From NCBI RefSeq assembly GCF_006175945.1, contig NZ_VAJL01000001.1, forward strand, positions 4,163,001-4,227,000: a stretch of DNA of 64,000 bases, read 5' to 3'. Under the pieces are notes generated by a model. That model did no database searches, had not been told where the DNA came from, and was given only the letters and a program-made list of their open reading frames with translations. The DNA comes from Chryseobacterium mulctrae (GTDB lineage Bacteria > Bacteroidota > Bacteroidia > Flavobacteriales > Weeksellaceae). Of the stretch, positions 24,714 through 47,213 are shown piece after piece (position 1 is the first letter of the stretch; each line of letters begins with the position of its first letter). A program made the position numbers and the translations under genes.

Positions 24714-24721
24714 AAAGGACA
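24714..24721 (-). promoter_or_regulatory. TGTCCTTT box before the tape measure gene
   Basis: TGTCCTTT on the coding strand, 54 nt before the ATG at 24666 and directly after the T-tail of the upstream terminator. It is one of eight such boxes in the prophage. Confidence 0.6.
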
Positions 24722-24761
24722 AAAAAACTGTGTACATCAAAAGCGTTTTTATGTACACAGT
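24721..24761 (-). terminator. Terminator upstream of tape measure gene
   Basis: An 11-bp perfect stem ACTGTGTACAT (24727-24737 with 24751-24761) is followed on the minus strand by seven T. It ends the transcript of the 24778-25236 gene. Confidence 0.9.
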
Positions 24762-24777
24762 CTTCTAAGTATGTACA

Positions 24778-25236
24778 TTAAATATTAGAAATGATTCTCC
24801 GGATATCAACCATAATTGCTTCTGATCTGAGCCTTACAATTTCATTCATGACAAATTCTTTCACGCCTGAAGCTTCCACGGCATCATCAATAAATGGTTG
24901 AGCTGCCATTTTCATCACATGAGCTTTAAAATTATAAGTTGTCTCCTGGGGACGGTGCCGAGTTCTGGATCCGGCATCTCTGACACCGTCAACTCCAAAA
25001 TTTTGGATAAAGCCATGTTTGGCCATCTTAATCGCAAGACTTCGCATGAAAAACTTTTGATTCCCGGCTCTGGCAGTTCCATACTTTTTAAGTTTTGCGA
25101 CCGATGTTGCATCTTTCAAAGATTTATCGCCTTCCTTTCGGTTTACATGATCAGCAAAGGAACTGGTTTTACTTCGCAGTGAAGCTTCCAACATTTGTTC
25201 AGCTTTGTCTGCAACTTCACGTTCGTTATTGTACAT
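24778..25236 (-). CDS. Conserved phage protein before the tape measure
   Basis: I do not recognise this 152-residue basic protein. It has a helical, charged N-terminus (ADKAEQMLEASLRSK), a central RAGNQKFFMRSLAIKMAKHGFIQNFGVDG stretch of which only the helical character can be judged, and a hydrophobic C-terminal helix ending RRIISNI. Its position directly upstream of the tape measure, but separated by a terminator, is where tail completion or minor tail proteins are encoded. It has its own TGTCCTTT-like box 50 nt upstream and a terminator downstream, so it may form a single-gene transcription unit. Confidence 0.65.
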   Translation of the reverse strand: MYNNEREVADKAEQMLEASLRSKTSSFADHVNRKEGDKSLKDATSVAKLKKYGTARAGNQKFFMRSLAIKMAKHGFIQNFGVDGVRDAGSRTRHRPQETTYNFKAHVMKMAAQPFIDDAVEASGVKEFVMNEIVRLRSEAIMVDIRRIISNI

Positions 25237-25262
25237 TGATTTTATTTTGAGCTAAAATAAAA

Positions 25263-25294
25263 ACTCCGGATATCCTTGTAAAGGACTCCGGAGT
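25263..25294 (-). terminator. Two-part hairpin terminator, overlaps a TGTCCTTT-like box
   Basis: The stem ACTCCGGA/TCCGGAGT (25263-25270 with 25287-25294) encloses an inner stem TCCTT/AAGGA. On the minus strand it is followed by TTTTTATTTT. It should end the transcript from the 25397-26232 genes. Confidence 0.8.
25280..25287 (-). promoter_or_regulatory. AGTCCTTT variant box, 50 nt before the 25236 start
   Basis: AGTCCTTT on the coding strand matches seven of eight bases of the prophage box. It lies inside the terminator stem, so its role as a promoter element is less certain than for the other copies. Confidence 0.4.
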
Positions 25295-25396
25295 AGGGAA
25301 TGTTTGTGTAATTCTGTAAACTAATTGAAAACTAAATTTTTAAGACTAATTTAAAAACTGTAACAAGAGTTTTTTGATGCAGAATAAAAGTGTAAA

Positions 25397-25702
25397 TTAA
25401 GTTCTTTCGTAAAGATTCCAAACTAAAATTCTACCGACTTCTTGCTCTTCAGAAATTTCTTCAGTCCACTGTGTTTTCTTTTTAATTATAACTTTTTCAG
25501 TTAGAATTTTCTGAGAATGTTTAAATCCTAATTCTTTCAAAATATCAAAAACATCATGCTGTGTAATAGGTTCATTGGGTATCACACCTCGAAACCAATT
25601 TAAGACAGCACCGGTTTGCATTTGAATATTATCACCTCCATCTGGAGTGGGTGAATAATACTGAAGGATAATATCCTTCATTTCTTCTTTGTAATCATCC
25701 AT
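25397..25702 (-). CDS. Unknown phage protein (101 residues)
   Basis: No family is recognised. The protein is acidic, with a central EPITQHDVFDILKELGF segment that looks like a small helix-turn-helix-type helical pair followed by strands (KILTEKVIIKKKTQW). Its start overlaps the stop of the preceding gene by 8 bp, so it is coupled to it. It is the last gene before a terminator in the short unit 25397-26232. Confidence 0.6.
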   Translation of the reverse strand: MDDYKEEMKDIILQYYSPTPDGGDNIQMQTGAVLNWFRGVIPNEPITQHDVFDILKELGFKHSQKILTEKVIIKKKTQWTEEISEEQEVGRILVWNLYERT

Positions 25703-25952
25703 GAGCTTCAGGTTTTAAAATTAGCATTAACGACTTAAATTTAGCCGGATTTCTGTTAATAACATGGTACAAAGAATTAAGATTTGAAAGTTGATTTTTT
25801 ATTAATTTCTCGTGATTTTCAACAACATCGTTGTCAATTCCTAAATTAACAATTACTTCATTTAAATCAGCTCTTAATTCTGCACTTGAATTCATGACAT
25901 CGTAGAAATCTTCTAGCCAGTCAGAGAATGCCTCATTAAATTGCTTTGCCAT
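25695..25952 (-). CDS. Unknown small phage protein (85 residues)
   Basis: An all-helical protein (FNEAFSDWLEDFYDVMNSSAELRADL and a second Leu/Asn-rich helix) with no known signature. It overlaps the upstream gene by 17 bp and the downstream gene by 8 bp, which supports translation. A heptamer TTTAAAA near its 3' end could in principle cause slippage, but the -1 frame stops at once. Confidence 0.6.
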   Translation of the reverse strand: MAKQFNEAFSDWLEDFYDVMNSSAELRADLNEVIVNLGIDNDVVENHEKLIKNQLSNLNSLYHVINRNPAKFKSLMLILKPEAHG

Positions 25953-26232
25953 GACCTTCGTATTTTTCGTTAAAATTTTTGATCATGTTCACATAGGCGA
26001 GGTCGAAAGTAGGACCGAAAGCAAATGCAGTTCTTTTGGTGGTATAAGAACTGAAGAGACATTTTACAATGCCGGCTTCCATGTAGCTGGAGGAAATGGT
26101 GCCATTATTCTGTTTAAGAAAATCAAAATTCTTTGATAGAATTGGTCTTTCAGATAATAATCTGGTTTGTCTTCTTCTTCCTAAAAACTTACTTAAGCTT
26201 CTGTTTTTAGTTGTTTTGGATGGGTTTCGCAT
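25936..26232 (-). CDS. Unknown basic phage protein, gene with a long structured leader
   Basis: The 98-residue protein has a strongly basic N-terminus (KTTKNRSLSKFLGRRRQTR) and a C-terminal helical half. No family is recognised; an RNA- or DNA-binding or minor tail role would be guesses. Its start codon lies in a 10-nt sequence (GCGAAACCCA) that recurs at the 5' end of its leader, with the complement in between. It heads a three-gene overlapping unit. Confidence 0.6.
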   Translation of the reverse strand: MRNPSKTTKNRSLSKFLGRRRQTRLLSERPILSKNFDFLKQNNGTISSSYMEAGIVKCLFSSYTTKRTAFAFGPTFDLAYVNMIKNFNEKYEGHGKAI

Positions 26233-26419
26233 TTTATATTTATTTAAAAATTGTTTTCAAATAAACCAAGAAAGAAAAGAAAGTCTTGATTTTCTTGGCA
26301 GTCGCGAAACCCAATCATCCGAAGAAGATATCCAATACTCATCAAGACCTAAGTCTTATTTTTATCGTAAAAAGTTAGTTGAAGATTTTTAGGACTTCTT
26401 CAGGTCAACTGGGTTTCGC
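26221..26419 (-). promoter_or_regulatory. Leader with two competing 10-bp pairings at the start codon
   Basis: On the minus strand GCGAAACCCA occurs at 26419-26410 (expected mRNA 5' end) and at 26230-26221 (containing the G of the start codon). The exact complement TGGGTTTCGC lies between them at 26313-26304. The middle copy can pair with either end: with the start-codon copy it would block translation, with the 5' copy it would free it. Alternatively these are three protein-binding sites. Confidence 0.55.
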
Positions 26420-26424
26420 TGTAG

Positions 26425-26453
26425 CAAAGATATATAAAAAAAACAATCTGCAA
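26425..26453 (-). promoter_or_regulatory. Candidate flavobacterial promoter
   Basis: On the minus strand TTG (26453-26451), 18 nt, TATCTTTG (26432-26425) matches TTG-N17-23-TAnnTTTG. Transcription would begin near 26420, at the first GCGAAACCCA copy. The -33 region overlaps the terminator stem. Confidence 0.55.
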
Positions 26454-26472
26454 AATTTATTGCAGATTGTTT
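26441..26472. terminator. Bidirectional terminator
   Basis: A perfect 13-bp stem AAACAATCTGCAA / TTGCAGATTGTTT with a 6-nt loop carries A/T runs on both sides. It ends the leftward 26488 gene transcript. Confidence 0.9.
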
Positions 26473-26487
26473 TTATGTTTAGTGTTC

Positions 26488-26814
26488 TTAACCTATAACC
26501 GGAGACTTGTAATAACATAGACATATCGCAAGATCAAGATCAATGTCTTGGGATTCAAAATGCTTCTTAAAAAAATCTCTTTCAAATGTACTTTCCATCA
26601 ACTCGTGAGCTACCTCCAAAATATCCAAAGCCATCTCAATGTTTCGAACCGCACACAGATAAGTAGCTATTTCATTTTTATCATTAGTTAGTTTAAAGTT
26701 ATGTCTTGCTTGTATTCCCATTCCTTCGAATGGAAGCCCATCCACCAGGAAACCTTTATTACTTTTTGCGAGATCGGAAATGTTTTTTGCATGTGTTCTA
26801 ACTGTAGTATTCAT
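26488..26814 (-). CDS. Unknown phage protein (108 residues)
   Basis: A mixed alpha/beta protein with no recognised family. It has a helical C-terminal half (NIEMALDILEVAHELMESTFERDFFKK region). It lies between two transcription signals in the tail assembly region, 26 nt after the next upstream gene, and is followed by a strong terminator. A role in tail assembly is possible only by location. Confidence 0.6.
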   Translation of the reverse strand: MNTTVRTHAKNISDLAKSNKGFLVDGLPFEGMGIQARHNFKLTNDKNEIATYLCAVRNIEMALDILEVAHELMESTFERDFFKKHFESQDIDLDLAICLCYYKSPVIG

Positions 26815-26840
26815 AAATTATAATTTTTTCTAAAATTACA

Positions 26841-27161
26841 TCATTTTGAATATTTTGCCAAATAGATAGCTGAAATAGCAGCTTGTTTTGTTACGCCAAT
26901 GTTCGTATCTGCATTGTCAATTACATGTCTTAAAATTTGCATTTCTGTGACCGGTTCAGGATATTCCTCTTTAATTTTTTTCTTTAACGTAATCAAGCAC
27001 GAAGTAAGACCATTTAAGTTCTTTTCACTTTCCGAAAGTTTATATTTAGAAAGAATCATTCTTATCAGCGGTTTAATTTCCTGAACTTTCGGAAAACCAT
27101 CAAATTCTACAGACATCACTGTATATGGATCAACCTTGATAGTGTTTTTTTGCTTTTTCAT
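26841..27161 (-). CDS. Unknown phage protein (106 residues)
   Basis: The frame is open to a TTG at 27200, but the first ATG (27161; MKKQKNTIKV) is a better start because a promoter-like sequence covers the intervening bases. The protein is basic and helical in its second half (LNGLTSCLITLKKKIKEEYP). No family is recognised. It lies between 27191-27694 and 26488-26814 in the same direction. Confidence 0.6.
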   Translation of the reverse strand: MKKQKNTIKVDPYTVMSVEFDGFPKVQEIKPLIRMILSKYKLSESEKNLNGLTSCLITLKKKIKEEYPEPVTEMQILRHVIDNADTNIGVTKQAAISAIYLAKYSK

Positions 27162-27170
27162 ATTTTTTTC

Positions 27171-27200
27171 CAAATATAAATATTGTCTGATCACTGACAA
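27171..27200 (-). promoter_or_regulatory. Near-perfect flavobacterial promoter inside the late block
   Basis: On the minus strand TTG (27200-27198), 19 nt, TATATTTG (27178-27171) fits the -33/-7 consensus exactly. The predicted start is within about 10 nt of the ATG at 27161, so the mRNA would be nearly leaderless. Confidence 0.45.
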
Positions 27201-27694
27201 ATATCTTCTAAATCTTTCCAGTCTGCAAAATCAACCTTTAACGGCTGCTTATTTTTAAGATTAAATAAAACATCAACACCAAAATCACCTGCAGATAATT
27301 CGACCGGTTTGATCTCGACAGAATCTTTCAGGAAGGCGTTGTACAAAAAATGATCAGAATTGAAAGATTCGTATCTCATCCTTGCGAGTATTTTTATGGC
27401 CAATTGCTCAGCATCATGAATTGCCTGGTACTGAGCATCAAGATCGCCGGGTTTAATTTTGTTAAACATAATCGCAAAACCAATTTTTCTCACAGCGACT
27501 GAGTTATCGTTTTGTCCGTCGAAGCCTAATGTATATCTGAAGAGCGCTAGAACCGGCGATTTTAAGCCCTTTACAGATGATGTTTTAGAACTCCATTCTC
27601 TCTCAAAAAAACCAACGAAATCATTAAGAAACGTTGACTGCATTACTAAATTTTCGAAGTAATTTTTCACTTCCAAATAACTATTTTCTTTCAT
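27191..27694 (-). CDS. Unknown phage protein (167 residues), tail assembly region
   Basis: No family is recognised. It has an N-terminal amphipathic helix (YFENLVMQSTFLNDFVGFFEREW) and a mixed body with LFRYTLGFDGQND and a C-terminal acidic DFADWKDLEDICQ. Size and position (between the 260-residue protein and the genes leading to the tape measure) would suit a tail completion or terminator protein, but no motif confirms it. Its start overlaps the preceding gene stop by 14 bp, indicating coupling. Confidence 0.6.
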   Translation of the reverse strand: MKENSYLEVKNYFENLVMQSTFLNDFVGFFEREWSSKTSSVKGLKSPVLALFRYTLGFDGQNDNSVAVRKIGFAIMFNKIKPGDLDAQYQAIHDAEQLAIKILARMRYESFNSDHFLYNAFLKDSVEIKPVELSAGDFGVDVLFNLKNKQPLKVDFADWKDLEDICQ

Positions 27695-28463
27695 TTGATT
27701 GGGCTTTTGCTTTTGCGCGGTGATATAAAATACTTTCTGACAGTACGCTTAAGAACTCGTACACACGGACTTTATTGACATCTTGTTTTTTTCCTAAAGG
27801 CTGAAGCTCGTCCATTGACATCCCTATAATAATTTTATCGAATGGAATAAACTGATCATCTTTTTTGGTGAATACGGGTTGCAGTTTTTTTTCTTCAGAA
27901 TCCTTTTTTGCTTCAGGAAAAACGACTTTAAAGGTTTTTGAAATTTCATTCCTGGTGAAGAGATAGGCGAGGGCTATAACCTCCATTTGCTTCACCGGAA
28001 TTTTTCTTGTGATGGCATCTACAGCAGCGATATCTAAATCATCGTATTCTTCTTTGATTCTGTACAACGATGCTACAAGTCTCTTTAAATTAAGAGTTGT
28101 CCGATCTTTATTCCAAAAGTAGAAGTACGTGTCGATTGCATTAAATTGACGGACTGTAATGTCACCAATTGCGTCAGCTGGTTTAATTAAGCCGGGGATA
28201 TCCGGGAATGAATAAAAATCTGCTTTCTCTTTGATGAAAGTTGTGTATTTACTGAGTTCTGATAATGGAACGTTTCTCCGGAGCTTATCCCAATTATACA
28301 GATCAGAATTTGAAGTTGATTTTTGGTAAATGATGATAATCATTTGAATGTAAGCTTCTGAGAAGTCCTCAACCGGAGTGTTTAAATAAAGATGTGCGAT
28401 CTCCTGAAGCTGCCATTCGTTAAGGCCATCCCACGATTTTGCGATCTCGATATATTCTGCCAT
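27681..28463 (-). CDS. Unknown phage protein (260 residues), tail assembly region
   Basis: The frame extends to a TTG at 28535, but the ATG at 28463 (MAEYIEIAKSWDGLNEWQL) is preferred; it lies 50 nt downstream of a TGTCCTTT box. The protein is largely helical with Trp/Tyr-rich segments (YFYFWNKDRTTLNLKR) and an acidic-basic C-terminus. No family is recognised. Its location upstream of the tape-measure group may indicate a tail assembly or chaperone role. It begins a transcription unit running leftward. Confidence 0.62.
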   Translation of the reverse strand: MAEYIEIAKSWDGLNEWQLQEIAHLYLNTPVEDFSEAYIQMIIIIYQKSTSNSDLYNWDKLRRNVPLSELSKYTTFIKEKADFYSFPDIPGLIKPADAIGDITVRQFNAIDTYFYFWNKDRTTLNLKRLVASLYRIKEEYDDLDIAAVDAITRKIPVKQMEVIALAYLFTRNEISKTFKVVFPEAKKDSEEKKLQPVFTKKDDQFIPFDKIIIGMSMDELQPLGKKQDVNKVRVYEFLSVLSESILYHRAKAKAQSNERK

Positions 28464-28506
28464 TCTTTTAATTTGATGGCAATATTGGATATCTTCTGAC
28501 AGGTAA

Positions 28507-28514
28507 AAAGGACA
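28507..28514 (-). promoter_or_regulatory. TGTCCTTT box before the 28463 start
   Basis: Exact TGTCCTTT on the coding strand, 50 nt upstream of the ATG at 28463. Confidence 0.58.
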
Positions 28515-28565
28515 AACTTTCCAAAAAATTTTCAAGAATTTTCCAAAGTTTTTTAATTTTGAAGA

Positions 28566-28832
28566 ATGAAACTAAGAGCTATTATTGCAGAGGCAGTTCT
28601 GCCTGAATCCTTTTTAATTGTTATAAAATTTGAAGGCGATAACAGAAATAAAAAATTTCATGTCGCTTGCTCATTTAATCCTTTTCAAAAAGGAATGAGA
28701 ATCTTCGAGACCTGGGAACTTATATTGAAGTTAGATAGCGAGGAAGTTATTACCGATGGTTTTGTAAAATATGAGACTATTTTGACTTGTGATAAAGCTT
28801 CACCGGTGGAAGAGATTGGAAAAGGAAAATAA
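28566..28832 (+). CDS. Small protein on the opposite strand, possible moron
   Basis: An 88-residue protein, beta-rich (AIIAEAVLPESFLIVIKFEGD, then FHVACSFNPFQKG), with no recognised family. It runs opposite to the late genes. A TAATTTTG sequence (28554-28561), matching the -7 consensus, sits immediately before the ATG, so the transcript would be nearly leaderless, or the match is coincidental. It could be an independently expressed lysogenic gene. Confidence 0.5.
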   Translation: MKLRAIIAEAVLPESFLIVIKFEGDNRNKKFHVACSFNPFQKGMRIFETWELILKLDSEEVITDGFVKYETILTCDKASPVEEIGKGK

Positions 28833-28911
28833 TATTTTAAAAAAGACTTTTCTTTTAAAAATATTTAAACTATATTTTTTTATAAGTTTATCATATTAAA
28901 CTTTTTAAACT

Positions 28912-29262
28912 ATGAACGAATTTAATTTCAGTGAGGTCTTCAATAAATATGAAGATAAAATAGGAGAGATCACTACAAATTACATTAATGACCTGAAAAG
29001 TCAGAATTTATCGCATTTTGATATGACTAGTTATATGACTCACAAAATAGTCGAATTAGAATCCGATTTGACCAACGAGTTGTCTCAATTTGCAACCACG
29101 TATGTTAATGATACAGCAGACCTGAGAGCGCAACAATTAATCACTACTGATCCGACGGTTTTGATTAGCTTTCAAATTCATATAAATATGCCGAAAATCA
29201 AACTATTAATAGCTATGTACAATCATGAAGCCGATATTGTAATGAGACGATTCATTCCATAA
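28912..29262 (+). CDS. Small helical protein on the opposite strand, possible moron
   Basis: A 116-residue protein, predicted all-helical, with many Asn/Thr and acidic residues (VFNKYEDKIGEITTNYIND; VELESDLTNELSQFATTY). No family is recognised. It runs opposite to the surrounding lysis and tail genes and is followed by a shared bidirectional terminator. With the 28566 gene it forms a two-gene rightward unit that could be expressed in the lysogen. Confidence 0.55.
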   Translation: MNEFNFSEVFNKYEDKIGEITTNYINDLKSQNLSHFDMTSYMTHKIVELESDLTNELSQFATTYVNDTADLRAQQLITTDPTVLISFQIHINMPKIKLLIAMYNHEADIVMRRFIP

Positions 29263-29277
29263 CTAATGTAAAACAAT

Positions 29278-29310
29278 AAAAAAGAGTATCAAACTTTGAT
29301 ACTCTTTTTT
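29278..29310. terminator. Bidirectional terminator between moron unit and endolysin
   Basis: AAAAAAGAGTATCAAA (29278-29293) is complementary to 29295-29310. The effective hairpin is GAGTATC/GATACTC with A and T runs outside. Confidence 0.92.
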
Positions 29311-29315
29311 ACTGA

Positions 29316-29879
29316 TTAAACTAAATCGTCATATTTTTTCAAAATATTCGCAAGACCTTTTCCGATGACATCTTTAAATGATACAATACTTTCAACAGCT
29401 CCGATTCCTGTAATGAAATCAACTTCTACCAAAACCGAAATTCCGGATCCGAGATTCAGAATTCCAATTCGAGAATGCTGAGAGTTATTTTCAGGCTTCA
29501 CTCCACGATTTTTAATTCCTAGTGTTTGACTCAAAAATTCATTAACCTCGTTCGCCATTTTGTAAGAATTTGAATTTTTGCTTTCAAAATCTTTTTTGTT
29601 GACATAACACTCAACGCCGCGAGTCGTATTGCTTACTGCAGCGTTCAAATGGATATCAAAAACAACTGAACCTGAAGCCGGTTTAATTCTGGTTTGATAC
29701 TGCTTGTTTGTTTCCCAATCTTTATCTACAACGATGTTTTTGTCCTCACTGTAATCAACGATTGAATCGCGGATGATCTTAGTGATATCGGCCTCCTTGT
29801 GGCCATTTGCTACGGCTCCCGGATCAGCATTGTTGTGACCTGCAGAAACGTATGTTCTTAATGGAGAAAATTGTATCAT
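29316..29879 (-). CDS. N-acetylmuramoyl-L-alanine amidase (endolysin)
   Basis: This zinc amidase of the Amidase_3 type cuts the bond between N-acetylmuramic acid and L-Ala of peptidoglycan. The motifs are SAGHN..DPGAVANGHKEADI (zinc His and Glu), DIHLNAAVS (zinc His), RGVECYV and, near the end, VLVEVDFI (catalytic Glu). The 187-residue length is that of a catalytic domain alone, with no signal peptide and no cell-wall-binding repeats, so it would need the holin to reach the periplasm. The frame reaches a TTG at 29891, but the ATG at 29879, one nt after the upstream gene's stop, is the likely start. It is last in the lysis cassette. Confidence 0.9.
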   Translation of the reverse strand: MIQFSPLRTYVSAGHNNADPGAVANGHKEADITKIIRDSIVDYSEDKNIVVDKDWETNKQYQTRIKPASGSVVFDIHLNAAVSNTTRGVECYVNKKDFESKNSNSYKMANEVNEFLSQTLGIKNRGVKPENNSQHSRIGILNLGSGISVLVEVDFITGIGAVESIVSFKDVIGKGLANILKKYDDLV

Positions 29880-29880
29880 A

Positions 29881-30045
29881 TTATTTGTCAAAAATTGATT
29901 TTACAGCCCACATTTTTGCGGTTTCTAAGTTTGTGATCGCTACAGCTCTCGATCTTGGATCAAGCTCAGTGTTATCATTTAGCGTTTTCTTAAGCTCTTC
30001 GAACTTCTTTTCAAATTCAGCTTTTGTTTCTAAAGGTGATTTCAT
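29881..30045 (-). CDS. Acb2/Tad1-like small protein (candidate anti-CBASS)
   Basis: A 54-residue frame fills the gap between the u-spanin candidate and the endolysin. It has a charged helix (ETKAEFEKKFEELKKTL), then LDPRSRAVAITNLETAKMW and AVKSIFDK. The pattern R...A.TNLE.A.MWAVK is, from memory, the signature of the Acb2/Tad1 hairpin domain, a phage protein that sequesters cyclic oligonucleotides made by CBASS or Thoeris-type defence. The helical-hairpin length also fits. ATG at 30045, stop at 29881, one nt from the endolysin ATG, so it is translated in the lysis operon. The match rests on recognition, not a search. Confidence 0.6.
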   Translation of the reverse strand: MKSPLETKAEFEKKFEELKKTLNDNTELDPRSRAVAITNLETAKMWAVKSIFDK

Positions 30046-30049
30046 TCTT

Positions 30050-31118: not shown

Positions 31119-31156
31119 TGTATAATTTTTTCATATTTTCGCAGTAAATAAAACTG

Positions 31157-33421: not shown

Positions 33422-34006
33422 CTAAGGTGAGAGTTTATTTTTAAAAAAATCATTATTAAAATCGTTATTGAAGTCACCAGGTATGGCTAAATGATCAATT
33501 GAGGAGCTGTATAGAAAAACCGGTGAATTGCAATTAATACCGATGGCCGCACCAGATATATCTTCATATTTTTTGGCGGTTCCAGCTTCAGAAGTGTCAA
33601 TAAATGCTCTATTGCGCATGTGTCCAATCTGCCAATTATTTCCATTTGAATCCTGAATAAAAAATACAAAAGGAATATTTTTACCTCTTTCTAGAAATCC
33701 GAGAATTGAGGGTAAGAATCCCAAAATGTAAATTGACAGATTTCCTCTAGTTTTTTTGCGCCCTGCATTTCCTGAAATAAAAGCTTTCAATTCGTTTTCA
33801 TCGATAAGAATATCAATGCAGCTTAGCTTTCTATCTTTTCTCATCAGGATTTGATCAGTAATGATGATCTCAGATTCCAAACTTTCTGAAGGTTTAGGAA
33901 GTGGAGTAGTAAAGAAAAATTCTTCCGGAGCATAAAATAATTTACATTTTACTCCTGAATTATATTCTCGCAAATACGAATATTTTATGTCTTGAAAGTC
34001 AATCAT
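33422..34006 (-). CDS. Paralogue of the 43965-44519 structural protein
   Basis: The 194-residue protein aligns with the 184-residue protein at 43965-44519 over most of its length. Both have LIDENELK or VIDENELK, a GN.G block, GFLERGKNIPF versus GFSKRHKNTPM, a DS.G..W core, and TAKKYEDISG versus TAKKYEESSG. One copy follows the capsid and this one lies between the portal block and the receptor-binding gene. The shared fold could be a tail tube, neck or decoration protein; I cannot say which. Its upstream gap holds a terminator and a CGTCCTTT box. Confidence 0.72.
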   Translation of the reverse strand: MIDFQDIKYSYLREYNSGVKCKLFYAPEEFFFTTPLPKPSESLESEIIITDQILMRKDRKLSCIDILIDENELKAFISGNAGRKKTRGNLSIYILGFLPSILGFLERGKNIPFVFFIQDSNGNNWQIGHMRNRAFIDTSEAGTAKKYEDISGAAIGINCNSPVFLYSSSIDHLAIPGDFNNDFNNDFFKNKLSP

Positions 34007-34013: not shown

Positions 34014-34039
34014 CAAAAAAACCGATATCGTTATCGGTT
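34014..34039 (-). terminator. Terminator after the 34052-34942 gene
   Basis: An 8-bp stem AACCGATA/TATCGGTT with a 4-nt loop is followed on the minus strand by seven T. Confidence 0.88.
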
Positions 34040-34041
34040 CA

Positions 34042-34049
34042 AAAGGACG
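34042..34049 (-). promoter_or_regulatory. CGTCCTTT variant box, 42 nt before the 34006 start
   Basis: Seven of eight bases match the prophage TGTCCTTT box. A terminator hairpin lies between it and the ATG, so a promoter here would be attenuated or inactive. Confidence 0.42.
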
Positions 34050-36628: not shown

Positions 36629-36660
36629 ACTGCGAATATCAACCTGACACCTGACGAAAT

Positions 36661-36668
36661 AAAGGACA
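36661..36668 (-). promoter_or_regulatory. TGTCCTTT box before the portal operon
   Basis: Exact TGTCCTTT on the coding strand, 39 nt before the ATG at 36628. The sequence TAAATAGTGTCCTTT here is shared with the box at 47206. Confidence 0.62.
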
Positions 36669-38565: not shown

Positions 38566-39139
38566 CGTCCTCCGTCTCTTCTACATTTTCATCGGCCTCT
38601 TTCCAGGATACATCTTCAGCTCCGATCTTATTGAAATCAACCACACCTCCTTCAAACATTGCTTTAAGCATGTTGTTTGCACCTCTTGGAAGATTAAGTT
38701 TGTAAACTGAAGCTTCAAGTTTTTTAGGATCGACAGTTGATTCTTTATGATCAAAGTCAAATAAAGCAGTGTAAGAATCCAAGGCTTTTCGTGCAGATTC
38801 TTCATTTCCTTTCTTTAAGGCCATTTGGTAGAGATTCCAATAATTCTCTACTAATACCATCCTTTCTGCGGCAAGATTTATTTTATCAATCGAGCCAAAA
38901 AGCTCCATAGCCAACGAGTAATCACGGTAAGCGGTTGCTTGAGATACGTTGTGATCCCGGATCAGAATTTTAACAGATTGTGCCGGAGAATATTTGTTGT
39001 TAAGTCGAAGACTCCAGATGTGAACGAGTCTGTCTTTCCGGAGAATTTCTTCAGGCGTCAGTTCCACCGAATCTTCATCGATGTACCAGGCTTTAATTCT
39101 CTGAAATGTGTTGTCTTTGGTAAATTTTACAATATCCAT
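38558..39139 (-). CDS. Terminase small subunit-like protein
   Basis: It has an N-terminal helix-turn-helix region (SVKILIRDHNVSQATAYRDY), a helical core (VENYWNLYQMALKKGNEE) and an acidic C-terminus (ENVEETEDDE), the usual layout for DNA-recognising small terminase subunits. The frame reaches an ATG at 39181, but that codon abuts the T-run of a terminator. The ATG at 39139 is 40 nt after a TGTCCTTT box, as for other late genes, so it is preferred (193 residues). It overlaps terL by 8 bp. Confidence 0.75.
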   Translation of the reverse strand: MDIVKFTKDNTFQRIKAWYIDEDSVELTPEEILRKDRLVHIWSLRLNNKYSPAQSVKILIRDHNVSQATAYRDYSLAMELFGSIDKINLAAERMVLVENYWNLYQMALKKGNEESARKALDSYTALFDFDHKESTVDPKKLEASVYKLNLPRGANNMLKAMFEGGVVDFNKIGAEDVSWKEADENVEETEDDE

Positions 39140-39172
39140 GACAGCGAAAATATCATCGCAAATCAGGTCAAT

Positions 39173-39180
39173 AAAGGACA
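39173..39180 (-). promoter_or_regulatory. TGTCCTTT box before the terminase operon
   Basis: Exact TGTCCTTT on the coding strand immediately after the T-tail of the upstream terminator, 40 nt before the ATG at 39139. Confidence 0.62.
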
Positions 39181-39181
39181 T

Positions 39182-39208
39182 AAAAAAAGCCTGACAAGTG
39201 TCAGGCTT
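39182..39208 (-). terminator. Terminator of the amidoligase cassette
   Basis: AAGCCTGAC/GTCAGGCTT stem followed on the minus strand by seven T. The stem is identical to that of the terminator at 40561-40584 on the other side of the cassette. Confidence 0.9.
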
Positions 39209-39260
39209 AAGTGTGTAAATAATTGAATTTAAACTTGCAACAGCAAATTTATAGTGTTAC

Positions 39261-40611: not shown

Positions 40612-40638
40612 ATAAATAAAATAAGGTGCAGAAGCAAG

Positions 40639-41973: not shown

Positions 41974-42096
41974 CTCACTTTTCAAATACACAAAGACCCC
42001 AGACAGAAGACTTTTATAGTCCTCCGCATGGGGTCTTTGTACTCAATATTTGAAAGGTGAGATTTTTGAATTTTGCGGAGGACGTTTCTTCCTCCT
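41973..42096 (-). promoter_or_regulatory. Methyltransferase leader with mutually exclusive hairpins
   Basis: A long hairpin has an outer 16-bp arm with one mismatch (41973-41988 with 42047-42062) and an inner 12-bp perfect arm (41990-42001 with 42029-42040). It covers the bases just before and including the A of the ATG. Its apical GTCCTCCGCA (42019-42028) is complementary to 42074-42083, which can also pair with GGAGGA near 42091-42096. A 15-codon frame (42029 to 41982) overlaps. Confidence 0.6.
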
Positions 42097-42136
42097 TGAG
42101 AATTTGTTCAAATGAAGTGAGATCAGCACACTGAGT

Positions 42137-42144
42137 AAAGGACA
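42137..42144 (-). promoter_or_regulatory. TGTCCTTT box upstream of the methyltransferase leader
   Basis: Exact TGTCCTTT on the coding strand, preceded by a T-run. The next ATG is 170 nt away, beyond the structured leader. Confidence 0.58.
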
Positions 42145-42191
42145 AAAAAAACTATCAACAATTGCTGAGAGTCTGTTTTAGCAGAAATTTA

Positions 42192-42422
42192 CTAATCCTT
42201 TTTTTGTTTGTCATATTGATGAATGCTGTATCTTGTTAGCTCATACATTTTATTAAAATCGTCCTGTATCATATCAATCAATTTTTGAATAATAATTAAT
42301 CTCACTGAAGTTTCGTTTCGCCGGCTTAACCGGATCATTTTTCTAAGCCTCTTCTTTCTTTTTCTCAAAATAATTCTATTAAAAGTAAGCAATCCAAGAA
42401 GCACAAGAACCCACAAAATCAA
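42192..42422 (-). CDS. Small membrane protein (start uncertain)
   Basis: A frame of 76 codons, starting at TTG 42422 or an internal codon, with an N-terminal hydrophobic segment (ILWVLVLLGLLTF) followed by a strongly basic stretch (LRKRKKRLRKMIRLSRR) and a helical tail. It overlaps the previous gene by up to 44 bp. A single-pass inner membrane protein with a basic cytosolic tail is predicted. Function unknown. Confidence 0.45.
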   Translation of the reverse strand: MILWVLVLLGLLTFNRIILRKRKKRLRKMIRLSRRNETSVRLIIIQKLIDMIQDDFNKMYELTRYSIHQYDKQKKD

Positions 42423-42588
42423 AAGTCACATTTAATGTTTTATTCGAGTCTTTGAATTGTTTTGTAAGACGTGAAGATATTCCAACACCGATTGATTGGC
42501 CAGACAGATTAATGAAAATTTCATTTTTTGTTTCTCGGTAATAAATTCCCATTTTTTTTAATCGTCTCTTACTGTAGAGTTTTTTCAT
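42379..42588 (-). CDS. Unknown small phage protein (69 residues)
   Basis: A small basic protein (KKLYSKRRLKKMGIYYRETKN) with a beta-rich C-terminus (IGVGISSRLTKQFKD). No family is recognised. It overlaps the upstream gene by 20 bp and the downstream membrane protein frame by 44 bp, as in compact phage operons. Confidence 0.5.
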   Translation of the reverse strand: MKKLYSKRRLKKMGIYYRETKNEIFINLSGQSIGVGISSRLTKQFKDSNKTLNVTFDFVGSCASWIAYF

Positions 42589-42847
42589 CTCTTTTTAAAT
42601 AATGTTCAAGTAAATAATTGAGTTTTGAACCAGAAATTATTTTTTTAAACTTCTTAAGACTGGGCGTTTTACCGTCATAAAGTCTTTCAGTAAGAGGGTT
42701 GTATTGTAAATCGATGAATAATTTATCTTCAAAAAAAGCGAAATAAACATCTATATCTCTCTGACCTACGAAACTGTATATCTCAGGACTAAGATCACTC
42801 ACATGAGCTCCTAACATTTCTAAAAAAGTTTGTATTTCTTTTTTCAT
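42569..42847 (-). CDS. Unknown small phage protein (92 residues)
   Basis: An acidic N-terminal helix (EIQTFLEMLGAHVSDL), strands around GQRDIDVYFAFFEDKLF, and a basic C-terminal helix (LKKFKKIISGSKL). No family is recognised. It starts 24 nt after the stop of the coiled-coil gene upstream and overlaps the next gene, so it belongs to the same leftward unit. Confidence 0.55.
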   Translation of the reverse strand: MKKEIQTFLEMLGAHVSDLSPEIYSFVGQRDIDVYFAFFEDKLFIDLQYNPLTERLYDGKTPSLKKFKKIISGSKLNYLLEHYLKRDEKTLQ

Positions 42848-42871
42848 GGGAACAAATAAAATAATTGTCCG

Positions 42872-43579
42872 CTAATCAGACAACAATTCCTGAATCTTTT
42901 CCTGGTCTAAAATATATTCCTGAAGCTGCTCAATTTTTCTCTGCACTGCAGCAGCTTTTTTTCTATAATTCTGATCATCATCCGGAGGTAATTCGTTCTG
43001 CATTTTTACAATGGTTTGTCTCCTTCTGCAGATAAGAGATTCAAGGTTTTTGTATTTATGGTCGAGCTGTACGATATTTAAATTTGAAAAATCATTTTTG
43101 CTCTTCATTGGTAGAACTCGCTTATGCTCCAGATAATAATCTAAAATATATTTATGCTTATCAAATTTCTTCATAACCTCCAAAATCTCCATCTGTACTT
43201 CATAAGCATCTGCTTCCTGATCTGCAGGAACTAAGTTAAGCTCAAGCTTCAGCTCACAGAATTCAAACCACAAAGAATCTACTTCCTGATAAGTTCGGTG
43301 CAGTTCCGGAGGATACTGAGCAATCACACCTATAAACTTTGGTCTTTCTCTTTTAAATTTTTCTGCAGGTTTTGGTTTTTCAATCTTCAGCCCTGGAGAA
43401 GTTATTGGAGAATTTTCAGGATCTCTTGGAGAATTGGAAATAACAACATTTGGCAGCTGTGAAATGAGATACGCAATCTTTGCCCGGTTTTCTAAGGTTG
43501 GGCTTTTATATCTGATTGCAAGTTTTGGATCTCCACCTGAAGAAAGGTAATTCTGTATGTTTTGTATGTGCTTTTCCAT
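42872..43579 (-). CDS. Coiled-coil phage protein (235 residues)
   Basis: It has a Pro-rich linker after residue 55 (SPRDPENSPITSPGLK), followed by two long helices likely to form coiled coils (about 100-150 and 180-235; YRKKAAAVQRKIEQLQEYIL). No family is recognised. It could be a scaffold, injection or regulatory protein. It lies downstream of the capsid block with a terminator before it, so it starts a separate unit. Confidence 0.62.
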   Translation of the reverse strand: MEKHIQNIQNYLSSGGDPKLAIRYKSPTLENRAKIAYLISQLPNVVISNSPRDPENSPITSPGLKIEKPKPAEKFKRERPKFIGVIAQYPPELHRTYQEVDSLWFEFCELKLELNLVPADQEADAYEVQMEILEVMKKFDKHKYILDYYLEHKRVLPMKSKNDFSNLNIVQLDHKYKNLESLICRRRQTIVKMQNELPPDDDQNYRKKAAAVQRKIEQLQEYILDQEKIQELLSD

Positions 43580-43584
43580 ATTTG

Positions 43585-43611
43585 AAAAAAGCTCCTATTT
43601 CTAGGAGCTTT
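43585..43611 (-). terminator. Terminator of the capsid block
   Basis: AAAGCTCCTA/TAGGAGCTTT, 10-bp stem with 4-nt loop, followed on the minus strand by TTTTTT. Confidence 0.92.
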
Positions 43612-43652
43612 GAAAATAAAAATATTAAATATAAAAAATAAAAATTATGGCC

Positions 43653-43961
43653 TTATTTATTTTGCACTGGCTTGTCTTCAGGTGCAGGTTTTTTTGCAGA
43701 TTTCAATAATGTTTTCAAAAGTTCAATTTCCGCTTTGAAACCGACTTTAGTTCGAATCTCAATAAGTTTTTGAATTTGTTCTTTTGAATAATCATTAAGA
43801 ATTTCTACACCATCTTTTTTCAGACATAAAGTTCTGGTTCCGTTTTCCCATAAACTTAAAGCATTAGCCGGTACACCGGTTAATTTCGTTTGAGAACCGT
43901 CGGATCCTATAATTGTGGATCCGACGGGAACTGTTAATATGAAATTTTTACTACTATCCAT
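43653..43961 (-). CDS. Unknown phage structural-region protein (102 residues)
   Basis: Beta-rich N-terminal half (FILTVPVGSTIIGSDG, LTGVPANALSLWENG) and a helical C-terminus (FKAEIELLKTLLKSAKK) with a Pro/Lys tail. No family is recognised. It is 3 nt from the preceding 184-residue structural gene and is the last gene of the capsid block, so a minor head or connector role is possible. Confidence 0.6.
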   Translation of the reverse strand: MDSSKNFILTVPVGSTIIGSDGSQTKLTGVPANALSLWENGTRTLCLKKDGVEILNDYSKEQIQKLIEIRTKVGFKAEIELLKTLLKSAKKPAPEDKPVQNK

Positions 43962-43964
43962 TTT

Positions 43965-44519
43965 TTAAACGTCTGGAGTAACTACAATTTCACCATTGAA
44001 AGCATACAGTGAACTGTTTGCGATTACGTTGAAAGCAATTCCTGAACTTTCCTCGTATTTCTTTGCGGTTGTAGCATCAGCCTTAGTCATATAAGCATCA
44101 AGAACAACCCACTTCTGACCTGTACTGTCAACAATCACATAACACATTGGAGTGTTTTTGTGTCTTTTGCTGAACCCGATGTTTTTTGGAATGAAGTTTC
44201 CAAGCATTCCATCGAACTGAGCCTGATCCTTCATATTTCCTTTGTTTCCAACCAGGTTGCTTTTCAATTCGTTTTCATCAATTACTAATGTAATTTTTTT
44301 GAAACCTTTGTCAACCGCTGGAGTCAAGGCCGTCAGAGTGATACTTTCTGCATAAGGAGTATCAACCGTAACAACCGGTTTGGTGACCGTCTGAAGTTGA
44401 TCCATTGGAATGTAAAAAATATCGGCTTTAACACCACCGACTACGTCTTTATTTGGGCAATAACCTAAATTTTCGGTTCTTACTGTTTTGAATGAACATT
44501 CGTCTAATTCTTCTGGCAT
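43965..44519 (-). CDS. Phage structural protein (paralogue of 33422-34006)
   Basis: The 184-residue protein has the conserved core ITLVIDENELKSNLVGNKG, GFSKRHKNTPM, VDSTGQKWVVLDA and TAKKYEESSGIAF. It shares all of these with the protein at 33422-34006. Position four nt after a small protein that follows the major capsid suggests a head-decoration, connector or tail-tube protein. A duplicated gene of this type in one phage is unusual. Confidence 0.72.
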   Translation of the reverse strand: MPEELDECSFKTVRTENLGYCPNKDVVGGVKADIFYIPMDQLQTVTKPVVTVDTPYAESITLTALTPAVDKGFKKITLVIDENELKSNLVGNKGNMKDQAQFDGMLGNFIPKNIGFSKRHKNTPMCYVIVDSTGQKWVVLDAYMTKADATTAKKYEESSGIAFNVIANSSLYAFNGEIVVTPDV

Positions 44520-44523
44520 CGTA

Positions 44524-44859
44524 TTAATTTTTAATGATTAATGGTGATCTGCCTCCAATGAATTGCAACAAAACTTCCTCGTTGTCTACGAGTTCTTGTC
44601 TTGAGAATTTTTGGCCGGCAAAATTGATGATTTCCGGAGCTTTTTCTGAAAAGGAATAGCTTTCTCCCTCGAAATCAAAAACAGTTACTGATTTTGATCC
44701 TTTTGCAAGTCCTTTAGATTTTTCGAAGTCTTTTTTTTCCTTTTCAAAATCTTCACGATCTTGAGCTAATTTTTCCGACTTAGTCTTCAAATCAGCTTCT
44801 TTTTTTTTAAGCAGCTCCTCAGTTAAAGGAGCTGCTTCTGTTGTTTGTTTTTCAGACAT
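44524..44859 (-). CDS. Small coiled-coil phage protein (111 residues)
   Basis: N-terminal Lys/Glu coiled coil (ELLKKKEADLKTKSEKLAQ) and a C-terminal beta strand region (VFDFEGESYSFSEKAPEIINF, QKFSRQELVDNEEVLLQFI). No family is recognised. It lies between the major capsid gene and the 184-residue structural protein, where head-tail joining or capsid-associated proteins are found. Confidence 0.62.
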   Translation of the reverse strand: MSEKQTTEAAPLTEELLKKKEADLKTKSEKLAQDREDFEKEKKDFEKSKGLAKGSKSVTVFDFEGESYSFSEKAPEIINFAGQKFSRQELVDNEEVLLQFIGGRSPLIIKN

Positions 44860-44885
44860 TTTTTAAAAATGATATGATTGATTAA

Positions 44886-45890
44886 TTACAAATCGCTAGG
44901 ATACCAAAGCTTGTGATCAGACGGGTCTGCTAGACCTCTGTCTTTCGTTCCGTCAGCAGTGTGAAGGAATAGATACTGATCAAATCCGAAATCATATCCC
45001 AATGAAAATTCAGATAGCATGTCTAGAACTCTATGGTTCACCTGCACATCTGTAATCTGACCAGGATTTTCAACGACATCAACCAATTCCAGGAAGTTGT
45101 TGTCAATGGTAGCGAACACAGTTCCTTTTGTCAAGCCTGGTACACCAACAATTTCACGTTTTCCGAATCTCGTTTTAACCATACCTGATTGATCGTAGGT
45201 AGGACGATTTCCAAACTGATTGTCGTAATCTTCTTGATACTCTTCCAAATCCTCTTCAGAAGTAAAAATCTTTTTTACTTTTGGTTTGGCCATTGAAGGA
45301 ATGTCTTTTTCAAATTTTGAAATAACAGAAACAGTATTGTTAGCTGTCAATGCGTCTCCAGGAACGTAGAAAGGATTACCGGCTGCATTGATTTTAGTTA
45401 GAACTTCGTTAAGTCCGTCCATTGAAGTACCGAACACCGGAACTGGAGCTCCAACTTTAGAAGCATCAAACTTTCCATTTACTGACAAATAATTCAAGTC
45501 ATCGATGATTTTGGCAATAACCAATTTCATTACTTCTTTGGTAACTGTTTTGTCTTTAGGATTTTTTCCTTCGTCAAACATTTCAGCATAAACGCTTCCC
45601 AAAACTTCAGCTGGATCTAAAGTAAAATCTACTTTTTGTCTGAAGGTTTTTAGTACTTTTTCTTTAAACTTTACATCATCATAAGGTGTGAAAGTTTTAG
45701 AATAGTATGATTGTACGACATGACCGATAAGTGCTACTACACTACCGTATTCGCCGTTAATTTTCGTCAATCTTTTAGTGTGTTTACTCAAGAAAATTTC
45801 TCCTGAAAGCAAAGCACCCTGAAAGAAAGTCTTGTTTCCGTTGATATAGCCAACGAGGTCTTTTCTTAAGTCTGATAGATCAAAAGGCAT
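44886..45890 (-). CDS. Major capsid protein
   Basis: The shell subunit. The 334-residue protein follows the prohead protease and a scaffold-like protein in the order expected for HK97-type heads. Its N-terminal region (LRKDLVGYINGNKTFFQGALLSG) and the YDFGFDQYLFLHTADG and DVQVNHRVLDMLSEF segments resemble the capsid proteins of Bacteroidota siphophages. I see no strict HK97 motif, so the call relies mainly on context and size. The stop is followed 26 nt later by the next gene. Confidence 0.7.
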   Translation of the reverse strand: MPFDLSDLRKDLVGYINGNKTFFQGALLSGEIFLSKHTKRLTKINGEYGSVVALIGHVVQSYYSKTFTPYDDVKFKEKVLKTFRQKVDFTLDPAEVLGSVYAEMFDEGKNPKDKTVTKEVMKLVIAKIIDDLNYLSVNGKFDASKVGAPVPVFGTSMDGLNEVLTKINAAGNPFYVPGDALTANNTVSVISKFEKDIPSMAKPKVKKIFTSEEDLEEYQEDYDNQFGNRPTYDQSGMVKTRFGKREIVGVPGLTKGTVFATIDNNFLELVDVVENPGQITDVQVNHRVLDMLSEFSLGYDFGFDQYLFLHTADGTKDRGLADPSDHKLWYPSDL

Positions 45891-45898
45891 ATTGAAAA

Positions 45899-46348
45899 TT
45901 ATTTTAAGGTTTTGAATTTGTTTTCGTTCAGAATCTGATTGTGTGCATAGTTTGCACTTTCATTCTTGTCATCTTTATCAATTCCGTCTGTAGAGATGAG
46001 AGAATGAGTATTGGCAGATTCACCATACTCTTTACACTTTGTGGAAAGTGTAGCAATTGCGTCTGCAGCAGAAGTTCCTTCAGGAAGCTCCAGTCCATTA
46101 GCTTCAAATGCTGAAGCAATAGCAGTGTTGATAGTGCCTAGCGTCGCTGAATTTTCACCAACTGTTGTAGTCAGATTTTCGATCTGAGTATTAAGACCAG
46201 CTACATCGTTTGCAGCCAAAGAAGATTCAATCTGATCCAGCTGCTCTTCAGTAAGTCGAACATGTGATTTTGCAAAAGGATTTACACCAGAATGAGTTTC
46301 TAAAACGGTTAAACCTAAAAGACCTAGAATAGCGGTATGTTTATTCAT
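45899..46348 (-). CDS. Scaffold-like phage protein
   Basis: The 149-residue protein is helical, Ala/Thr-rich (NTQIENLTTTVGENSATLGTI) and low in aromatic residues, typical of head scaffolds. It lies between the protease and the major capsid, 2 nt from the former and 8 nt from the latter. It could alternatively be a delta-domain-like protein removed by the protease. No family is recognised. Confidence 0.65.
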   Translation of the reverse strand: MNKHTAILGLLGLTVLETHSGVNPFAKSHVRLTEEQLDQIESSLAANDVAGLNTQIENLTTTVGENSATLGTINTAIASAFEANGLELPEGTSAADAIATLSTKCKEYGESANTHSLISTDGIDKDDKNESANYAHNQILNENKFKTLK

Positions 46349-46350
46349 AA

Positions 46351-47160
46351 TTAAAATTTTGAAAGGGCTTGTTCCAGAGTCATTATTTCGTCCACCAAGC
46401 CAATTTTTAGGGCTTCAGTAGCGTTGTATGTCTTTCCTTTGAAAACATGACCGTCATCCGTGAGTTTTTCGCCGTAATTGGCCTTGATGGTCGAGATAAA
46501 TTCGTCTGTAATTATTTTAAGGCGCTCTTTGTAAGGCGCTTCGTTACCGGTGATCAATTCTTTGATATCGGCGTTTTTTTCTGTGGATTGAGGCGCATAG
46601 ATTTCATAAATCTTTGCACCCCATTTTTCGAACATTGCTGAGAAGTCCTGAAATGACAGGTACGTTCCAATAGAACCAATGTGACTCGCAAAAGGGCTGG
46701 CAATTTTCATATTACAAGCTGACGCGATCCATTCAGCAGCTGAACATTGCATTTCTGAGGTGAAAGCAATTGTTGGTTTCTTCATGTTTTTGATGAAGTC
46801 TGCAAATTCAGCAGTTCCGGAAACTTGTCCGCCTCCAGAGTCGATATTGAAAAGAACTCCGGAGATATTTGGATTAGCATCAATATTTCGAAGAATACTC
46901 TGCATGTCCAAGGTTCCGAGGATATTGTATGTTGAATACTTTACAATCGGACCGATAATGTTAAATACAATTGGATATTTACTAGCACCATTAGAATTGG
47001 CGCTCATTTGTGCATCAATAGATTTAACGAATTTTTCCTGCACTTTTTCTGCAGAAACAAGAGTATTGGTTTTGAAGCCAATAATCATTTCAGTTAAAAA
47101 TGACATTAGATAATTTTTATCTATTGCCAGAGGAGTATTAAAAAAATTAAGTCCGTGCAT
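46351..47160 (-). CDS. S49-family prohead protease
   Basis: This SppA/ClpP-fold serine protease matures phage proheads. The 269-residue protein has the oxyanion-region FNIDSGGGQVSG, the nucleophile Ser140 in MQCSAAEWIASAC, then SHIGSIGTYLSFQDF. The Ser-Lys dyad is likely completed by a Lys about 50 residues later (IKELITGNEAPYKERL). Length is shorter than cellular SppA, as usual for phage proteases. It heads the capsid block. A TGTCCTTT box lies 52 nt upstream of its ATG. Confidence 0.88.
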   Translation of the reverse strand: MHGLNFFNTPLAIDKNYLMSFLTEMIIGFKTNTLVSAEKVQEKFVKSIDAQMSANSNGASKYPIVFNIIGPIVKYSTYNILGTLDMQSILRNIDANPNISGVLFNIDSGGGQVSGTAEFADFIKNMKKPTIAFTSEMQCSAAEWIASACNMKIASPFASHIGSIGTYLSFQDFSAMFEKWGAKIYEIYAPQSTEKNADIKELITGNEAPYKERLKIITDEFISTIKANYGEKLTDDGHVFKGKTYNATEALKIGLVDEIMTLEQALSKF

Positions 47161-47205
47161 CTTGTTGATTTCACGGACAAAATTGTTTTAATGTCGAAGG
47201 TTAGG

Positions 47206-47213
47206 AAAGGACA
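47206..47213 (-). promoter_or_regulatory. TGTCCTTT box before the capsid operon
   Basis: Exact TGTCCTTT on the coding strand, 52 nt before the ATG at 47160. It shares TAAATAGTGTCCTTT with the box at 36661. Confidence 0.62.

Follow-up and report, generated by a model that had tools for sequence, protein, structure and literature searches.

The RinA, ArpU and Ltr late regulators of Firmicutes phages are encoded between the early and the late genes and serve one late promoter. The Ltr protein of phage Phi13 is the subject of PMC13123087. In phage T4, the middle promoters carry a phage box in place of the upstream promoter element, retain the downstream element of the host, and are read by one phage protein, MotA (PMC6755090). 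The promoters of the Bacteroidota primary sigma factor, sigma-ABfr, have the consensus TTTG at -33 (PMC7366714) and a -7 element which, in Flavobacterium johnsoniae, is made up of T-12, A-11, T-8 to T-6 and G-5 and is followed by the start site after 4-5 nt (PMC6847099). Our searches of the open-licence PubMed Central literature yielded no description of late-gene activation in phages of Bacteroidota. Here we report on an octamer, TGTCCTTT, that stands before the late operons of a prophage of Chryseobacterium mulctrae. The window (the whole stretch of 64,000 nucleotides that was analysed) covers positions 4,163,001-4,227,000 of a 4.87-Mb genome, and the prophage extends from a tyrosine integrase gene to past 48 kb, with its late genes on the minus strand. 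We consider it likely that the boxes are the upstream halves of phage late promoters and are read, together with the host RNA polymerase, by a phage protein of ~152 residues, which we refer to as c7.

The prophage sites share the two-part plan of the T4 middle promoters, and one phage protein is likewise predicted to read all of the boxes. They differ in that the MotA box is centred near -30 (PMC6755090) and TGTCCTTT would lie at -40 to -33, in that the T4 promoters have a -10 element and serve middle genes while those described here have a sigma-ABfr -7 element and serve late genes, and in that c7 was unlike MotA in the searches made. Judged from the DNA and protein sequences, these sites would work like a MotA-type promoter, though with another polymerase and a protein that looks unrelated. 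With RinA, ArpU and Ltr, c7 shares the position of a small regulator gene directly upstream of the late operon, whereas those phages have one late promoter and there are about eight here.

Re-reading of the sequence confirmed the six copies of TGTCCTTT and the two variants, AGTCCTTT and CGTCCTTT, that the first-pass annotation had listed on the minus strand (Table 1). That annotation had also used the spacing of the boxes to decide ambiguous gene starts; those at 28463 and 36628 matched the box-to-start distances in relatives, and the one at 39139 was off by at most 1 nt. A further AGTCCTTT at 48130-48137 was rejected as a promoter, as it is coding and lies inside gene 47707. The number of octamers in the whole window was unremarkable (7 matches versus 3.42 expected, with at least 7 in 8/100 shuffles), and we rejected this count as evidence by itself. 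On the late-gene strand of the prophage there were 6 octamers versus 0.56 expected, and none of 500 simulations reached 6. This strand and region were picked after the sites had been seen, and weight was therefore put on the relatives.

Table 1. Box sites and other features of the window.
Feature	Positions	Strand	-7 or -7-like element	Predicted +1	Start codon	Remarks
Tyrosine integrase gene	15026-16282					Pfam PF00589
TGTCCTTT box, tape measure gene	24714..24721	-	ATCTTGC 24686-24693	24681	ATG 24666	
AGTCCTTT box, 25236 gene	25280..25287	-	ATTTTAG 25252-25259	25247		
TGTCCTTT box, 28463 gene	28507..28514	-	ATATTGC 28479-28486	28474		
CGTCCTTT box, 34006 gene	34042..34049	-	34014-34021 (A missing)	34009	ATG 34006	
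TGTCCTTT box, small gene between terL and portal	36661..36668	-	ATATTCG 36633-36640	36628 (A of ATG)	ATG 36628	
TGTCCTTT box, terS	39173..39180	-	ATTTTCG 39145-39152	39140	ATG 39139	
TGTCCTTT box, methyltransferase gene	42137..42144	-	TCATTTG (A missing) 42109-42116	42104		
TGTCCTTT box, prohead protease gene	47206..47213	-	47178-47185	47173	ATG 47160	
47214 gene	47214..47705	-				163 aa; candidate of the first-pass annotation; also in viral contig L039, with identical terL
47707 gene	47707..48162	-				Directly downstream of c7; probably a virion protein; family of 43965-44519 and 33422-34006
c7 3' remnant	48190..48480	-				Residues 64-152 of ~152 (last 89); 94% identical to the intact copy of genome G125
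IS21-type element (ends approximate)	48470..51060	+				IstA-like 48636-50186; IstB 50199-50936

A search with the large terminase subunit (terL) identified close relatives of the prophage in 11 of 320 genomes of the family, this one included (22/320 at any level of similarity), and on 13 viral contigs. The first-pass annotation had worked from this window; when the box was sought in the related prophages, it recurred on the late strand ahead of the same late operons. The 13 viral loci contained 47 copies of TGTCCTTT on the late strand and none off it, and 19 genome pieces, which include some host DNA, contained 59 on and 9 off. In genome G008 alone, the strands were nearly even (4 on, 3 off). 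Allowing any first base, a box preceded the prohead protease gene in 10/11 genomes, the small terminase subunit gene (terS), the gene between terL and portal and the 25236 gene in 8/11 each (TGTCCTTT itself in six of the eight for the 25236 gene), the 28463 gene and the tape measure gene in 7/11 each, the 34006 gene in 5/11 and the methyltransferase gene in 4/11; these counts are lower bounds, as some pieces end inside terS. Among 72 sites, three lay deep in a reading frame and three more were AGTCCTTT near the start of members of the 47707 family.

A wider survey by terL alignment took in 37 named genome loci and the best 80 of 97 viral loci. Most of the 118 loci that were scanned had repeated TGTCCTTT, or else repeated copies of a second box, TGTCCTAT, on one strand. 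With the strand taken from c7 at 97 loci, 76 were assigned to TGTCCTTT (314 copies on-strand versus 20 off-strand), 18 to TGTCCTAT (82 versus 6), and three were ambiguous. The label required at least two copies of one type and at most one of the other, so that the separation of types is partly a matter of definition; the absence of mixed loci is not, and no locus of the 97 had both types at two or more copies on the c7 strand. Where terS and terL are inverted (e.g., in G590), the box is inverted along with them. A single host genus, Flavobacterium, has phages of both types, with TGTCCTTT in F. bernardetii and TGTCCTAT in F. erciyesense and F. urumqiense.

A host -7 box had been reported as not evident at most of the window sites. 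Contrary to that description, a -7 element was present at a fixed spacing. All eight window sites have TT 25-26 nt after the box, followed by a G at 27 or 28, and six of the eight have an A at 22. The motif was first derived from an alignment on the box only of 100 TGTCCTTT sites, reduced to 74 non-redundant ones, in which A30 (63/74), T33 (69/74), T34 (74/74) and G36 (54/74), counted from the first base of the box, were conserved; in register, these positions read as TAnnTTTG, the Bacteroidota -7 element. After sites more than 75% identical to a kept one had been dropped (TGTCCTTT from 314 to 216, TGTCCTAT from 81 to 60), the A of ANNTTY[GA] stood 22 nt past the box at 109/216 TGTCCTTT and 42/60 TGTCCTAT sites, while any other distance was found at no more than 11 and 3 sites, respectively. 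The variants TTCG and TTGC also occur at phage sites. Nine of the 20 off-strand copies of TGTCCTTT had the -7 A at 22 nt as well, and these may be promoters of inverted genes.

Based on the distance from the -7 element to the start site in F. johnsoniae, the transcription start is placed at position 41 and the box therefore at -40 to -33, which is, on this alignment, the slot of the host -33 element. The late 5' ends are thus predicted ~33 nt after the box, within the 30-40 nt that the first-pass annotation had proposed. With regard to the features of a sigma-ABfr promoter, the phage sites have TAnnTTTG at -7 and lack TTTG at -33. A G directly after the box, which would complete TTTG, was found at only 5/216 TGTCCTTT and 0/60 TGTCCTAT sites, as if the host element were avoided. 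The -7 element and a similar overall spacing are shared with the promoters of the host (PMC7366714, PMC6847099); the phage sites differ in the replaced -33 element and in their leaders. Counting frames of 60 codons or more, the predicted start coincided with the first start codon, giving a leader of 0 nt, at 73/216 TGTCCTTT and 29/60 TGTCCTAT sites, and a second group of 55/216 TGTCCTTT sites had leaders of 10-13 nt; in F. johnsoniae, the predicted leader is longer than 10 nt for 87% of transcripts (PMC6847099). With the predicted start so often on the A of AUG, many late mRNAs may lack a leader altogether.

In the host chromosome, 20 stretches totalling 400 kb, searched on both strands, contained nine copies of TGTCCTTT. 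None of these nine had T[TC]G at the promoter spacing, the host sample being without the arrangement of box and -7 element. In the same 400 kb, TAnnTTTG was 4.3 times denser upstream of genes (2.40/kb) than inside them (0.55/kb).

The first-pass annotation had attributed the boxes to a phage-encoded activator or sigma-like factor and had named the 47214 and 47707 genes as candidates. The promoter and the phage origin of its reader were supported by our analyses; the two candidates were not, and both were rejected. The 47214 gene had no relative in the ten other genomes (1/11), and in an iterated profile search the 47707 gene joined a family that is repeated in the late region. This profile gave 248 hits in 120 loci, a figure that may include profile drift, and the join makes a virion role the likelier one for the family. 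By the same search, the family occurs three times along the late region of the window, at 33422-34006, 43965-44519 and 47707-48162.

When the frames of the 11 genomes were clustered, only c7 (10/11) and the 47707 family (9/11) were present in at least nine and yet located outside the late region, next to each other and immediately before the protease gene. The c7 gene was found at 97/135 loci, and at all 83 loci holding both genes it was on the same strand as the protease gene and at most 1.5 kb upstream of it. Within the bacterial family, c7 was identified in 10/320 genomes, all of them among the 11 with a close terL. Only 6 of 86 cases of c7 had a box of their own within 200 nt upstream. The AlphaFold2 model of c7 (pLDDT 88.0, pTM 0.79) has C-terminal helices at residues 113-123 and 133-151. 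Its single strong viral structure match was an uncharacterised protein of Polaribacter phage Leef_1 (E 2.8e-10, TM 0.83). The Pfam matches of 72 c7 members at E 0.01 included no sigma family, and the kept host -7 element likewise argues against a phage sigma factor that reads both elements. No MotA family was found in the Pfam and PHROG scans of the 72 members, in which a distant fold could escape detection, and no RinA, ArpU or Ltr family was among the listed Pfam and PHROG matches of c7.

The history of c7 followed that of the box more closely than the history of the structural genes did. When the C-terminal helix was left out of the c7 tree (73 of 80 rows, short and ambiguous ones having been removed), box type needed one change (support 74). 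It needed two changes on the tree of terL, forced by well-supported branches, two on that of portal, three on that of the capsid gene and two on that of a fourth gene (63, 59, 71 and 57 rows, respectively, for the loci holding each gene). Forcing the TGTCCTAT phages together on the terL tree was rejected (p-AU 0.0028). Among the c7 columns that differ by box type, 141, 143, 144 and 139, which surround the invariant R142, ranked 1, 4, 7 and 13, and residue 141 was Q, S or F in 15/16 TGTCCTAT proteins versus 1/57 TGTCCTTT proteins. In addition, the TGTCCTTT phages of loci L147 and L220, whose terL is nested among those of TGTCCTAT phages, had c7 residues 139, 141 and 143 of the TGTCCTTT type.

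The association of c7 with a box extended to distant phages. Leef_1 (Helgolandviridae), an isolated phage whose terL is 41.6% identical, encodes the c7 homologue as gp39, annotated as hypothetical, and had six TGTCCTTT on-strand and none off, with -7 elements that were mostly TTGC- or TTAG-like; the word promoter is absent from the main text of the paper on this phage (PMC8776804). Proteins similar to c7 were encoded upstream of the protease gene in Cellulophaga phage Ingeline_1 (E 1.4e-6), Flavobacterium phage laban6-1 (9e-9) and a Porphyromonas phage (8e-8), the E values being for the frames of ten loci. Ingeline_1 had three TGTCCTTT on-strand, two of them with a strict -7 element, and the Porphyromonas phage two, both with it; neither had a copy off-strand. 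A different box, TGTCACAA, was found in laban6-1 (L241), with four copies on-strand and none off, three with a strict and one with an imperfect -7 element; TGTCCTTT and TGTCCTAT are also present there, without a -7 element. A Microcystis phage had three TGTCCTTT on-strand and one off, and no c7-like hit. Searches of the class and of the phylum (own genome included) identified c7-like genes in 12/395 and 5/395 genomes. Eleven distant loci were taken, of which three were too short, at contig ends, and eight, with 20 kb, were judged. G1173 and G1068 had four TGTCCTTT on-strand and none off each, and G1311 (L271) had five copies of a further box, TGTCGTTT, on-strand and none off, all in register with a -7 element and followed by a conserved TATCGCA.

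Judged by sequence, that the boxes belong to a family of promoters appears close to certain, and the proposed role of c7 as their reader is well supported. It is unlikely that another phage protein, either the product of a poorly conserved early gene or that of the gene downstream of c7, reads the box in its place. Such a reader would be favoured by the want of a known DNA-binding domain in c7 and by the downstream gene being nearly as tightly linked, with 94 hits directly downstream at the 97 c7 loci. Nevertheless, the clusters present in at least nine of the 11 genomes are all downstream of the protease promoter except c7 and its neighbour, this neighbour groups with the repeated late-region genes in the profile search, and box type fits the tree of c7 better than those of the four structural genes. 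A host alternative sigma factor or regulator that the phages exploit could account for the -7 half, which is the host's own. This seems very improbable, and we rejected it: two box types occur among the phages of one host genus, the host sample is without the arrangement, and for both reasons a phage-encoded reader is the likelier one. The two-part pattern TGTCCTTTN{20,21}ANNTTYG likewise was hardly enriched in the 4.87-Mb host genome, with 8 matches versus 7 for the reversed control.

The boxes might instead be no more than poor -33 elements of ordinary, constitutive promoters of the primary sigma factor, seeing that the TTT at the end of the box lies where the host consensus reads TTTG and that the -33 element of F. 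johnsoniae is weak anyway (PMC6847099). We regard this as extremely unlikely, given that all eight bases recur from operon to operon, that the operons switch to TGTCCTAT together, and that the G completing TTTG is rare. The probability that the box is a signal other than a promoter, such as a mark for DNA processing or packaging or a part of a terminator, is negligible in our judgement. A terminator-like hairpin did stand directly upstream of 36/216 TGTCCTTT and 13/60 TGTCCTAT sites (0-2 in shuffles), and at 13/216 TGTCCTTT sites (0-2 in shuffles; 0/60 for TGTCCTAT) a hairpin occupied the spacer with its T run serving as the -7 element. The spacing to the -7 element and to the start codons is rigid, however, the boxes stand before operons, and most sites had no hairpin: any of three kinds was found by the same scan at 57/216 TGTCCTTT and 20/60 TGTCCTAT sites.

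Several observations weigh against c7 as the reader of a shared promoter. The eleventh genome, G309, has kept its boxes, and no c7, protease or capsid gene was seen in it. Three loci extend more than 1 kb upstream of the protease gene without c7 (L166, L178 and L221). L166, with boxes and 2.3 kb upstream of its protease gene, is a clear miss; in L178 and L221 the 47707 family lies upstream, with only 476 and 510 nt left beyond it; this is roughly one c7 long, and a copy truncated by the edge might have gone undetected. Any one Pfam or PHROG family matched at most one of the 72 c7 members, no PDB fold matched the c7 model at E 0.001, and the loop of nine residues between the last two helices is longer than that of a classic helix-turn-helix. 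Columns 97, 113, 106 and 111, outside the C-terminal helix, ranked 2, 3, 5 and 6 among those differing by box type. The TGTCCTAT proteins form one side of one branch, and the link between residues and box comes down to two independent pairs, which is below significance and thus suggestive. Some of the surveyed loci are near-copies of each other or overlapping pieces of one phage, and the survey has 80 distinct c7 sequences. As for the promoter, the strict -7 pattern at distance 22 was missing at 107/216 TGTCCTTT sites, and the host genome yielded the near-equal counts given above; three of those eight matches are in the prophage, and their clustering alone favours the pattern. Among the distant phages, Flavobacterium phage 6H had no clear box, the G1173 contig is probably L163, which had already been counted, the c7 match of G1311 was weak (E 6.6e-4), and the other five of the eight distant loci had one or two near matches each, seven in total versus two off-strand.

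If c7 is the reader, it would bind the box and recruit the RNA polymerase of the host to every late operon simultaneously. TGTCCTTT would replace the -33 element of the host, with the host-type -7 element kept at its fixed spacing. Contact with the box would probably be made by the C-terminal helix around R142, and c7 would presumably act with the host primary sigma factor, sigma-ABfr, and not replace it. The late promoters would be weak before c7 is made because they are without TTTG at -33. We are evenly divided on a broader proposal, that c7 is a new and old-established family of promoter readers occupying the -33 position used by the RNA polymerase of Bacteroidota and constitutes the general late switch of a large phage lineage, that the family is shared by phages of Flavobacteriaceae and Porphyromonas, that its specificity (TGTCCTTT, TGTCCTAT, TGTCACAA or TGTCGTTT) shifts in every operon together by way of residues around the invariant arginine, and that the late mRNAs are largely leaderless.

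What these analyses provide is a defined promoter with a start site predicted to the base, one candidate activator of an unnamed family, and, in TGTCCTTT and TGTCCTAT, a natural specificity pair. If correct, they would explain the late-gene switch of these phages in several groups of Bacteroidota. They would also offer a phage-specific promoter system in a phylum with promoters unlike those of E. coli, and a set of mRNAs predicted to be leaderless in bacteria without Shine-Dalgarno sequences.

The C. mulctrae prophage itself is probably defective. Its c7 gene, of which no further copy turned up in the genome, breaks off at an IS21-type element that the genome carries 13 times. In the ten other genomes, no early gene was related to the frames from this element to 53 kb, and most of the early region seems to have been lost. 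Because c7 is cut at the element, the prophage is probably unable to activate its own late genes. With c7 truncated, no other copy found and the early region apparently mostly lost, the boxes of the window are therefore probably orphans. Four tandem tRNA-Met genes (14555-14957) stand at the integration site beside the integrase gene, and a 17-bp repeat of the tRNA end at 53763-53779 is the likely right attachment site. PHROG names were obtained in the window for the prohead protease, the methyltransferase, the large terminase subunit and the tape measure protein, with a weak one for portal. The late region between 39552 and 41991 also contains an amidoligase-like gene (phrog_2443) and a fusion of a ParB-like domain with a methyltransferase (phrog_498).

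In the window, the hairpin scan identified one spacer hairpin (34014-34049), at the CGTCCTTT site, where its T run also serves as the -7 element, and one terminator-like hairpin (39173-39220), directly upstream at the terS site. By eye, the AGTCCTTT box at 25280..25287 lies within an inverted repeat with T after it. We rejected, as a general rule, that an inverted repeat spans the start codon: arms of at least 6 starting from the -7 element occurred at 67/216 TGTCCTTT sites versus 48.6 in a recombined control (maximum 57 in 20 draws) and at 24/60 TGTCCTAT sites versus 14.2 (maximum 21). Only long arms, of at least 9, stood out (11/216, controls 0-3; 8/60, controls 0-2). Arms of 9-12 bp connect the early leader with the -7 element, their sequences differ between phages, and several end in a T run; long inverted repeats were found in loci L141, L143, L155, L167, L184, L204, L209, L215, L222, L225 and L234. 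Downstream of the methyltransferase promoter (42080-42144), several relatives have a Shine-Dalgarno-like string (TTCTCAAGGAGG or close to it), which is unusual for Bacteroidota. Around the start codon of the prohead protease gene (47151-47178), GTCCGTG is paired with CACGGAC; this repeat recurs in relatives, with another sequence in G313.

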